From the NCBI GenBank assembly GCA_913058495.1, contig CAJXQC010000006.1:62001-126000 (forward strand): a stretch of DNA of 64,000 nt, given 5' to 3'. The translations under genes and the position numbers were made by a program. Of the stretch, positions 18,383-22,300 are shown in pieces (position 1 is the stretch's first letter; every line of letters starts with the position of its first letter). The notes beneath the pieces were generated by a model. It was not told where the DNA came from, ran no database searches, and saw only the letters and a program-made list of their open reading frames with translations. The DNA is from an uncultured Balneola sp. (lineage in GTDB: Bacteria > Bacteroidota > Rhodothermia > Balneolales > Balneolaceae).

Positions 18383-18757
18383 ATGCCAAAGCCTATTTTT
18401 AATAACGATCTTAATAAAAATATTAAAGTCTTCGCTGAGATTGATGGTGGACCTAGATCAGGAATTGGCCCCAATGGTGAATCTGAACTTGGAAAAGAAG
18501 GAAGTACCAGCTTACCTGATGAACTAGAATTCACCAAATATGATATTAATAAGGAAGTAAAAATAATTATTGAGTTAGACAAGATTCCTAATAATTCCAA
18601 GGGCGAAGGTTTTGTATATGCTTTTGGTGAAAAAATGGGAAGAGCTCCACATCATATTGAAGTTAAAAGAAGTGGAAATGATTTTACTTTAATAATTCAT
18701 TATAAAAATGCCGGAAGCGTTACAGATGTGGATCCCCTAGTAAAACATCCAGGCTGA
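18383..18757 (+). CDS. Small orphan protein upstream of sensor kinase 1 (124 aa)
   Basis: ATG start, 124 residues, no signal peptide, lipobox or membrane segment, so probably cytoplasmic. Composition is charged, with a Gly/Pro-rich early stretch (IDGGPRSGIGPNGESELGKE) and later beta-like segments (KIIIELDK, DFTLIIHYKNAG). I recognise no family. It is framed by the palindromic operator A on its 5' side and by the sensor kinase, whose predicted non-AUG start lies two bases after its TGA. That placement suggests a regulatory or accessory partner of the kinase. The ORF is intact and reasonably coding-like, but without homologues in hand the call is moderate. Confidence 0.6.
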   Translation: MPKPIFNNDLNKNIKVFAEIDGGPRSGIGPNGESELGKEGSTSLPDELEFTKYDINKEVKIIIELDKIPNNSKGEGFVYAFGEKMGRAPHHIEVKRSGNDFTLIIHYKNAGSVTDVDPLVKHPG

Positions 18758-18758
18758 T

Positions 18759-21590
18759 ATTATATATAAATATATAACATTATTTTTTTTTGTATTACTA
18801 TGCCAAAATTCGACATACAATGTTTTGGCTCAGAAAGCTTATGTCTCAAAAAACTATACTGTAGAAGATTTTGCGAATTCCAGACAACATTGGGATGCTG
18901 TTCAATTAGATGATGGCAGAATGATTCTTGGGAATTCCAATGCCATCAACTTATTTGATGGAGTAAATTGGAGTTATATCCATGTTCCAAAAGGACAAAC
19001 TGTGTATTCACTTGCTATTTCTAAAACAGGCAGGGTTTACACCGGAGGGGAGGGAGATATTGGATATTTGTACCCAGACTCATTAAACCGAATGAAATTC
19101 AGATCTTTACTACCTAAAATGGATTCGTTATTTCACGGGTTTTTATATGTAAGGCAAACTCATTATTTAGATAATAAGGTATACTTTCGTTCCAAATCTC
19201 AATTAATGATGTATGATGAAGTAAGGGATACTGTTTATGTTCATCAAAAAAAAACAGAGATAGGAAATTCCTTTTTAATTGATGATGAGATTGTTGTTCA
19301 ATTGGAAAAGGGGATATATAAGATCAATGACTTAAATGAGGTACTGATCGATTCATCTGAGGCATTCAGAGACGATGAAATCTATGGTATGTTACCGATA
19401 GATGAACAACTTTTGATTTACTTTAGAAATAAGGGTTTACAAGTATTTAATGGATATCAACTCGAAAGTTTTTCAACACCTTCTGAAAAGTATTTGGAAA
19501 CCCATTTAGGATATCGAATGTTGAAGCTTAACAACGATCAGATAGCTGTAGCTACGCTTACCGGTGGAATTGTAATTTTAAATTTAGAAGGAAAAATAGA
19601 TCAAATACTTACCAAAGAAAGAGGTCTCAACGATTCACACGTCTATGGTTTATTTGTAGATAAACAAGACTTATTATGGGCTATGCTGGATGATGGTATT
19701 TCTGTTCTTCATTCAGAAAAAGGCTTGCAAGTTTATGACTATAACTATGGAATTGAAGGTTTAGTAACAGGAATCTATAATTCAAATAAATTCACTCATG
19801 TTATCACAAATAAAGGATTTTATATAAAGGGTGAGGGCGAAGAATTCAGGAAAATAAATATAAATCCGGTACAGGTTTATAACTCTGTGAAACTTTCGGG
19901 TAAAATATATTCCGCTACTTTTCAGGGATTATTTCAAATTAATAAGGATGATTTAGATCAAGTTTCTTCTACAGTATTTGAAAAAATTATAACTATCAAT
20001 GATTCAAGTTTATTGGGATGGTCAAACGAAAAATTGTACTTAATAAACATAAATAATGAAGACTTTGAGGAAAATTTATTCATTGAAGATTTCAAATATC
20101 CGATTAACTGGATCATAAATGACAATGACCTTTTTGCATATGAAGGGAATAATAAAATAGCAAAATTGAGTCTTTCAGATAAAGAGAAAACTATAATTCC
20201 AATTTCTGATGATGTAGGCAACATATATATAATGAATAGCATAAAGGATACAATCCTTTTAGGTACTTCAGATAGCATATATAAATTAGAGGGAGATCAA
20301 GTAAAAAAAATTGATCAAAAACCTTTACAGAATTTTAAGCGTGTTACTCAGATGGAATATTGTAACAAAGCAATTTGGTTGAGATCGGAAGCTGATTTAT
20401 TCAAAATTGATTATGAAAACAACAATCAGATAGTTCAAAAAGATATATTCAATACTATTGGGAATACTGAAGGTGTTTATTCTATTTCGTGTACAGAAAA
20501 TCAAACTTGGTTTGGTTTAGAAAACAAGGTTATTTCTATTTCAAATGAGTATGATGTAACACATAAGCCCTTTTATACAAATATAACGCGATTAGTAGTA
20601 AATAATGACTCGTTAATTTATGCCGGGTTTGAGGAGCCTGAAAAGATGACGCTGCTGAATTACAGTAAACAAGAAATAAGATTTAACTATGCGGCAGCTA
20701 ATTTTTTAAATCCAGAGCAAAATGTGTATTCGTATAAGCTTGAAGGATTTGATAATAAATGGAGTTCATGGTCTTCAAATACTCAGAAGGCTTATACAAA
20801 TATTCCGGAAGGGGATTATATTTTTAAGGTAAGGAGTAAAAATATTTTTAATCAGGAAGGAATTCCTGATGAATTTAAGTTTAAGATTCTTCCACCCTGG
20901 TACAGAACGTGGTGGGCGTATAGCCTATACGTGATATTAATTGTAGGATTTCTATACATGATCTACAAAATCAGGCTCAACCAAATTCTTAAAGTCCAAC
21001 GGGTCCGAAACAGAATAGCAGATGATCTGCACGACGACCTTTCCGGGACTTTGATCGGTATCAGTAATTTTGCAAAAGCAATTACTAAAAATCCTGATAT
21101 GAAAAACCAGAAACGGTTTATCGGATTAATAGAAAAAAGTGCTGACGAAGCTAAAGAAAAGATAAGTGATATTGTATGGACCATTAATCCAACTCATGAT
21201 GAATGGACTAATTTCTTAACTAAGTGTCGCCGGCATGCGTCAGATATTTTTGAGGCACAGGGCATCGAATATGCTTTAGAAATGGATGAAAATATTCCCG
21301 GGAACCTGGAAATGGAACTCAGAAAGAACCTGTGGCTCATATTTAAAGAGATCATTACAAATATTATTAAACACGCAGAAGCAGAATATGTTCTTATTCG
21401 TTTTACAACAGAATCAGGGAAGTTGAATATTACGATAAGAGACAAAGGAAAGGGGTTTGATGTAAATACTCAGAAAAAAGGAAATGGTATTAATAACGTC
21501 AAAAAAAGAGTAGAAACCATAAATGGGAAACTTAGTTTGGATTCAACACCTTCTGAAGGTACAAAATGGAATATTGTAGTTCCTGTTTAG
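18759..21590 (+). CDS. Propeller-type sensor histidine kinase 1 (reg_prop, Y_Y_Y, HisKA_3, HATPase)
   Basis: The first canonical start in frame is TTG 18825, but that begins at A-Q-K-A-Y, inside what looks like a signal-peptide cleavage site. Reading the open frame back to ATT 18759 gives a textbook signal peptide: Lys at position 4, then ITLFFFVLLC, then NVLAQ. There is no ATG, GTG or TTG between the upstream in-frame stop (18741) and 18825, so I place the start at ATT 18759 (943 aa) provisionally. After the signal come about 620 residues of two-component-regulator propeller repeats, a Y_Y_Y domain (EGFDNKWSSWSSN... IPEGDYIFKVRS), one membrane helix (WWAYSLYVILIVGFLYMIY), a HisKA_3 phospho-acceptor His in ADDLHDDLSGTL (codon at 21030), and a HATPase_c domain (GKGFDVN... 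GNGINNVKKR). The partner is probably the regulator at 21659. Confidence 0.88.
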   Translation: MIYKYITLFFFVLLCQNSTYNVLAQKAYVSKNYTVEDFANSRQHWDAVQLDDGRMILGNSNAINLFDGVNWSYIHVPKGQTVYSLAISKTGRVYTGGEGDIGYLYPDSLNRMKFRSLLPKMDSLFHGFLYVRQTHYLDNKVYFRSKSQLMMYDEVRDTVYVHQKKTEIGNSFLIDDEIVVQLEKGIYKINDLNEVLIDSSEAFRDDEIYGMLPIDEQLLIYFRNKGLQVFNGYQLESFSTPSEKYLETHLGYRMLKLNNDQIAVATLTGGIVILNLEGKIDQILTKERGLNDSHVYGLFVDKQDLLWAMLDDGISVLHSEKGLQVYDYNYGIEGLVTGIYNSNKFTHVITNKGFYIKGEGEEFRKININPVQVYNSVKLSGKIYSATFQGLFQINKDDLDQVSSTVFEKIITINDSSLLGWSNEKLYLININNEDFEENLFIEDFKYPINWIINDNDLFAYEGNNKIAKLSLSDKEKTIIPISDDVGNIYIMNSIKDTILLGTSDSIYKLEGDQVKKIDQKPLQNFKRVTQMEYCNKAIWLRSEADLFKIDYENNNQIVQKDIFNTIGNTEGVYSISCTENQTWFGLENKVISISNEYDVTHKPFYTNITRLVVNNDSLIYAGFEEPEKMTLLNYSKQEIRFNYAAANFLNPEQNVYSYKLEGFDNKWSSWSSNTQKAYTNIPEGDYIFKVRSKNIFNQEGIPDEFKFKILPPWYRTWWAYSLYVILIVGFLYMIYKIRLNQILKVQRVRNRIADDLHDDLSGTLIGISNFAKAITKNPDMKNQKRFIGLIEKSADEAKEKISDIVWTINPTHDEWTNFLTKCRRHASDIFEAQGIEYALEMDENIPGNLEMELRKNLWLIFKEIITNIIKHAEAEYVLIRFTTESGKLNITIRDKGKGFDVNTQKKGNGINNVKKRVETINGKLSLDSTPSEGTKWNIVVPV

Positions 21591-21658: not shown

Positions 21659-22300
21659 ATGGAAAAAATAATCAAGGTAGGGATTGTAGAGGATAACCCA
21701 TACATGAGAGAGGGTTGGGAGACCTTCATCGATTTAGAGAAAGACATGTGTGTTATTGGAAGTTATGAATCGGTTGAAGATGCATGGGATTCAGATGATT
21801 TGAAGAAATGTGATCTTATCATAATGGATATAGAATTACCCGGTATCTCCGGAATTGAAGGAGTAAAAAAAATAAAAAAGAAAGGCCTGAGCGCAGAAAT
21901 AATAATGGCTACGGTTTTTGATGACGATGATAATATTTTTAATGCGGTAAAAGCAGGAGCCGTTGGTTATTTGTTGAAAAAAACTTCTCCCGAAGATATG
22001 GTAAAAGCAATAAGGCAGGCATTTAAAGGTGGGTCTCCAATGACTCCAAATATTGCAAGGAAAGTAATACAAACCTTTCATATAAAATCTCTTCCGCCTG
22101 AAAAACAATTATCAGAACGAGAACTGGAAATTCTCAGAGAACTGGCTACAGGACGATCCTATGCAGAAATTGGGAAAAGAATTTTTCTTTCAGTAGATGG
22201 CGTCCGGCATCATATCCGGGGTATTTACAAAAAGCTGGAAGTAAACTCCAGAACTGAGGCTGTGACCAAAGGCATCAACAGAAATCTTATTGCTGTTTGA
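21659..22300 (+). CDS. NarL/FixJ-type response regulator 1
   Basis: 213 residues. Receiver domain residues 5-120 with acidic pair E11/D12 in GIVEDNPYMREGW, phospho-acceptor D57 in LIIMDIELPG, and the switch/Lys region in GYLLKKTSPEDM. LuxR-type HTH at about residues 148-205 (LSERELEILRELATGRSYAEIGKRIF, then VDGVRHHIRGIYKKL). It follows sensor kinase 1 and is the natural partner of it. The DNA-binding helix differs little from that of the regulator at 27406, so both could recognise the same palindrome; a copy of that palindrome lies in this gene's own upstream gap, suggesting autoregulation (inference). Confidence 0.92.
   Translation: MEKIIKVGIVEDNPYMREGWETFIDLEKDMCVIGSYESVEDAWDSDDLKKCDLIIMDIELPGISGIEGVKKIKKKGLSAEIIMATVFDDDDNIFNAVKAGAVGYLLKKTSPEDMVKAIRQAFKGGSPMTPNIARKVIQTFHIKSLPPEKQLSERELEILRELATGRSYAEIGKRIFLSVDGVRHHIRGIYKKLEVNSRTEAVTKGINRNLIAV

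Follow-up and report, generated by a model that had tools for sequence, protein, structure and literature searches.

A sensor histidine kinase gene without a canonical start codon in a Balneola-type bacterium: probable initiation at a near-cognate AUH codon

The window, by which we mean the whole 64,000-nucleotide stretch of DNA analysed here, comes from an uncultured Balneola sp. and carries on its forward strand a small gene followed by the genes for a sensor histidine kinase (kinase 1) and a response regulator (Table 1). The kinase 1 frame remains open for 948 codons, with internal stops absent and its stop codon ending at 21590. Two Pfam domains are recognized in the protein with scores above their cut-offs [Y_Y_Y, 50.1 bits (cut-off 26.6), and HATPase_c, 38.8 bits (cut-off 26.4)], and HisKA_3 reaches 21.9 bits against a Pfam cut-off of 24.

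Table 1. Features of the kinase 1 locus, in positions of the window
Feature	Position	Strand	Basis
Upstream gene, 124 aa; fast-evolving family preceding kinase 1 in relatives, with a shared short C-terminal tail	18383..18757	+	Relatives, profile
Last stop in the kinase 1 frame, TAA	18741..18743	+	Sequence, codon listing
TGA of the upstream gene	18755..18757	+	Sequence; 4 bases ahead of ATA 18762
ATT, candidate start of the preliminary description, second choice here	18759..18761	+	Context score, alignment A1
ATA, favoured putative start codon	18762..18764	+	Alignment A1 column of L047, L048 and L049; median context score
Sensor histidine kinase 1: predicted exported N-terminal region, Y_Y_Y, transmembrane segment (by eye), HisKA_3-like region, HATPase_c	18762..21590	+	Frame, Pfam
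Signal peptide; counted from ATA 18762, 24 residues through the Q of LAQ	18762..18833	+	Translation, relatives
T9 tract within the hydrophobic core	18783..18791	+	Sequence; slippage there cannot provide a start
First canonical in-frame start, TTG, at the cleavage site	18825..18827	+	Codon listing
Response regulator, Response_reg + GerE	21659..22300	+	Pfam; downstream of kinase 1

A preliminary description of this DNA had stated that kinase 1 offers no canonical start between the in-frame stop at 18741 and TTG 18825, and that this TTG falls inside an AQ cleavage site. Both statements are borne out by a listing of the in-frame codons: the 27 codons at 18744-18824 include no ATG, GTG or TTG, and TTG 18825 encodes the L of the NVLAQ that closes the hydrophobic stretch IYKYITLFFFVLLCQNSTYNVLAQ. 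The only AUH codons in frame ahead of it are ATC 18747, ATT 18759, ATA 18762 and ATA 18774. Gene callers limited to ATG, GTG and TTG would strip the signal peptide from kinase 1 and misread the protein as cytoplasmic.

The 81 bases that precede TTG 18825 were shuffled with their dinucleotides preserved (n = 20,000); 3,394 shuffles stayed open and 270 (1.4%) were both open and at least equally hydrophobic. Of 3,000 shuffled 81-mers taken from anywhere in the window, 492 were open and 5 (0.2%) were open and as hydrophobic; part of the hydrophobicity in these figures comes from T-rich composition alone, and both tests ignore the basic n-region and the A-Q cleavage site and thus understate the case for a signal peptide. 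In all six relatives of kinase 1 a signal peptide, as judged by eye, lies at the equivalent place, and the possibility raised earlier, that relatives begin at the position of 18825 without one, does not describe them. On the strength of the shuffles and of the signal peptides in these six relatives, we take the 18744-18824 stretch to be coding, in agreement with the original reading of a signal peptide upstream of TTG 18825.

The nearest relatives of kinase 1 in a search of 38 genomes are 45% (G003), 42% (G001) and 39% (G017) identical, and the genome_contigs database yielded one relative, at 42% identity; same-species or near copies of the locus were absent from the viral_contigs and phages databases. 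Four members of the six-relative set belong to the genus (L045, L046, L047 and L048) and two to other genera of the family (L049 and L052). Inspection of their starts, proposed earlier as a check, showed that all six begin the signal peptide canonically, with ATG in L045, L048 and L049, TTG in L046 and L052, and GTG in L047, so that a non-canonical start conserved among species was found in none of the six. Among another 12 large frames, taken from G004 and the order, 11 likewise show a canonical start close to where the frame opens, L096 being the remaining one. The near-cognate codon ATA 18762 nevertheless occupies a homologous start position: in alignment A1, it shares its column with the starts of L047, L048 and L049 (three of the six), with those of L046 and L052 falling three columns after it and that of L045 four columns before it, and no relative starts over ATT 18759. 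The N-termini resemble each other accordingly (MHKYIF in L048 vs M-YKYIT in the window), and the count of residues up to the Q is 24 in L049 and likewise 24 in the window if counted from ATA 18762. Judged from sequence, kinase 1 appears to show what marks a non-canonical start in bacteria, namely a homologous N-terminus preceded by no canonical start. The ATA itself, as far as these genomes go, is private to one of them, and conservation is no argument for its use; the closest relative, just 45% identical, is too distant to bear on recent selection at the kinase 1 start.

For scoring start-site context, we took 209 ATG-first genes that are 250 codons or longer from 624 kb of the window's genome (28 stretches plus the window) and derived from them a 42-position matrix of the start region. 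Real starts have quartiles of 0.35, 2.35 and 4.62, and internal AUN codons of -5.56, -3.41 and -1.18. The candidates score -3.35 (ATC 18747), 0.22 (ATT 18759), 2.30 (ATA 18762), 2.73 (ATA 18774) and 1.51 (TTG 18825), which places ATA 18762 at the 50th percentile of real ATG starts, a value that 3% of internal AUN codons reach, and ATT 18759 at the 23rd. ATA 18774 slightly outscores ATA 18762, but we prefer the latter because a start at 18774 would lose the n-region lysine. The preliminary description had favoured ATT 18759; the shared A1 column, the peptide length of L049 and the median context all fit ATA 18762 better. Shine-Dalgarno energy was dropped as a start criterion, because ATG starts pair no better than random positions: with an assumed anti-SD sequence, 149 genes showed no enrichment (median -0.9 vs -2.2 kcal/mol at random positions). 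More generally, the ATG-first genes of the genome (n = 149 and 209) are A-rich around -20 to -10 and weakly folded locally, and lack SD enrichment.

Directly upstream of kinase 1 lies a gene that had been described as an orphan. That label does not hold, since relatives have a small gene at the equivalent place with a similar short tail, although a single-sequence search with the upstream protein hit one of eight genus genomes, and there only itself. The tail reads DVDPLVKHPG in the window and DIHPDIHHP, HICDPSKPGCDS and HVCDPRYENCNG in relatives, with PEP- or NPPG-like ends further out. A nine-member profile of the tail family matches only the five genus genomes that have a close kinase 1 relative and not the three without one, a count that leans toward those five, as they supplied rows to the profile. 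From these sequences, the tail gene, kinase and response regulator look like a module, present in five of eight genus genomes, and a tail that is sensed or processed beside a sensor kinase would be worth studying. In L045, L046, L047, L048, L049 and L052, 13 to 85 bases separate the stop of the small gene from the kinase start; in the window the corresponding spacing is 4 bases to ATA 18762 and 1 to ATT 18759.

What has to be accounted for is an absent canonical start, an intact signal peptide and body, a homologous start position, and the presence of other such genes in the same genome. We propose that kinase 1 is a live gene and that a near-cognate AUH codon serves as its start, with AUA 18762 the likeliest candidate and AUU 18759 the second choice, and assign this reading a probability of roughly 0.58. 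A non-AUG start is probably the simplest route to the kinase 1 protein, and to this extent the earlier proposal of such a start stands, but a base substitution competes with it, as discussed below. IF3 disfavours initiation at near-cognate codons. We infer that ribosomes would start at AUA 18762, where the initiator tRNA would read the codon as formyl-methionine and the product, M-YKYITLFFFVLLCQNSTYNVLAQ, would be an ordinary signal peptide; that little kinase 1 would be made, because of the discrimination by IF3, on which its level would depend; and that ribosomes finishing the upstream gene at its TGA may feed AUA 18762. Such translational coupling of the two genes is plausible because the kinase start closely follows the stop of the upstream gene.

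A survey of late starts covered two samples of the genome. The first, of 464 kb, has 243 frames that reach 200 codons, and in 36 of these at least 14 codons precede the first canonical start; the second, a further 160 kb, has 126 frames that reach 150 codons, and in 23 of these at least 13 codons do. Read by eye, 3 of the 369 frames (about 1 in 120), kinase 1 included, have no canonical start before an N-terminus marked by homology. Other late-start frames proved ordinary in a three-frame view, with a later ATG as the start (e.g. L067 13000-14043 and L077 1347-2573). The yigZ/IMPACT gene (G000:C16:8733-9356, L104, minus strand; TIGR00257, 171.3 bits vs cut-off 167.95) lacks ATG, GTG and TTG before its GSKF motif in five of eight genus genomes, the window's own among them; a CTG at the start position is conserved in six of the eight, and L117, L119 and L121 have TTG at that spot. 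This conserved CTG offers a clean test case for start choice in a phylum with little Shine-Dalgarno use. In a HEAT-repeat membrane gene (G000:C3, L069 7242-8381), the transmembrane segment is not preceded by a canonical start; its ATT is kept in its one genus relative (55% identical), but that relative carries a GTG as well, two codons ahead of the ATT. Outside the survey sample, infC (L057, G000:C34; L053-L060) has ATC-GCA in all eight genus genomes; in six of these, including the window's own, the conserved core RAAQVR is preceded by no canonical start, and in two an ATG follows five codons later.

This kind of start is already known, and kinase 1 would be a new, unproven member of the group. 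The infC gene, which encodes IF3, starts with ATT or ATC and is autoregulated. Kinase 1 would resemble it in a near-cognate AUH start without a canonical alternative, but the infC start is conserved across species and that of kinase 1 is not. In Streptomyces, according to the available part of the report, sigR starts with GTC and is repressed by IF3, which keeps the regulator low (PMC5472188). Kinase 1 may likewise be a regulatory gene held low via a non-canonical start; the sigR case, as described in the same excerpt, is proven by experiment and involves a different codon, GTC, and for infC fidelity mutants a rise of 3- to 15-fold is quoted there (PMC5472188). The closest match in codon is Listeria rsbW, an operon regulator gene in which ATA or ATT replaces ATG: the accessible text reports changes that arose under acid selection and reporter activities in the order ATG > ATA > ATT, with ATA and ATT still yielding some protein (PMC13068326). 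By the same text, these variants, unlike kinase 1, were selected in the laboratory and the wild type of the species has ATG (PMC13068326). Our literature search on Balneola-type start codons found no related report, and the portions of PMC11445065 and PMC11497404 available to us hold nothing decisive on the kinase 1 start. As a speculative and rather doubtful extension, Balneola-type bacteria, with ATG starts that lack SD enrichment, might tolerate near-cognate starts, and ATC in infC, CTG in yigZ and ATA/ATT in kinase 1 and perhaps in the HEAT-repeat gene would form a small set tuned by IF3, in which kinase 1 would be kept purposely scarce relative to the upstream tail-bearing protein.

Instead of a settled trait, the ATA could be a recent ATG-to-ATA substitution in the strain that produced a weak or null kinase 1 allele, either nearing loss or selected for low output. 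We consider this unlikely, but it is the alternative with most in its favour: ATA 18762 is one substitution away from a canonical start, relatives have ATG or GTG there, and changes of ATG start codons to ATA or ATT are documented in Listeria rsbW and in Bdellovibrio bd0108, the latter, as the available part of the report describes it, a spontaneous ATG-ATA start mutant (PMC3818213). Indeed, damage of this class also occurs in the genome: in a sensor kinase of the same class (G000:C2:42985-45897, L066 2985-5981, minus strand), the frame changes directly after the signal peptide, whereas relatives encode signal peptide and body as a single frame. Set against this, the body and signal peptide of kinase 1 are intact, so any loss would be recent, and other genes of the genome keep conserved near-cognate codons instead of canonical starts. 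The sequence of one genome is compatible with both a settled trait and a fresh lesion at ATA 18762.

Improbable, in our estimate, is a one-base assembly or base-call error that conceals a canonical start in the true genome. The assembly is a draft of 47 contigs, and 5 of 117 possible single substitutions in codons 18744-18782 would create a canonical start. Substitutions are rare in assembled drafts, however, which counts against this explanation, and the error would have to be a substitution and not a homopolymer indel, as no frame offers a start. The preliminary description had considered slippage or a sequencing error in the T9 tract, and had listed a mutated start alongside them; of these suggestions a substitution survives, but slippage or a miscount at the homopolymer does not, because the three-frame codon listing shows no ATG, GTG or TTG in the interval from each frame's last stop to the tract. 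The sole TTG nearby, at 18790, begins in the last two T of the tract and would omit the first half of the peptide.

Translation from TTG 18825, yielding a product without a signal peptide, is very improbable. This codon is the first canonical start and the choice of gene callers, and its context is not bad, but with its use the sensor region would end up on the wrong face of the membrane and the upstream hydrophobic stretch would go unexplained; the six relatives possess a signal peptide, and the site folds at -9.1 kcal/mol, more strongly than 96% of real starts. Least credible of all is a fusion of the upstream gene with kinase 1: a +1 shift at the GGC TGA (18755) does enter the kinase 1 frame, but it would bury the signal peptide, and those relatives that show both genes have 13 to 120 bases between them and a separate start for the kinase.

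Whichever codon is used, and we favour AUA 18762, the gene preceding kinase 1 belongs to a fast-evolving family. The small genes (window 18383-18757; L045 3860-4495 and 5492-6022; L046-L049; L052) differ in their bodies and have in common a C-terminal tail ending in DP/HP, and some members have two cysteines (CDP..C). An AlphaFold2 model of the upstream protein, from 9 rows, has a mean pLDDT of 71.6, and no fold could be assigned from the best Foldseek match (E 0.064) or the best VIA-align match (Z 5.5, to designed proteins); a Pfam match to RnlA_toxin_N, at 18.9 of 24 bits, lies below the cut-off and is not believed. In one relative (G003, L045 3700-6060), two tail-gene copies stand in tandem, separated by a disrupted copy of the upstream lipoprotein-like gene; their 5' flanks and tails are nearly identical and their bodies different.
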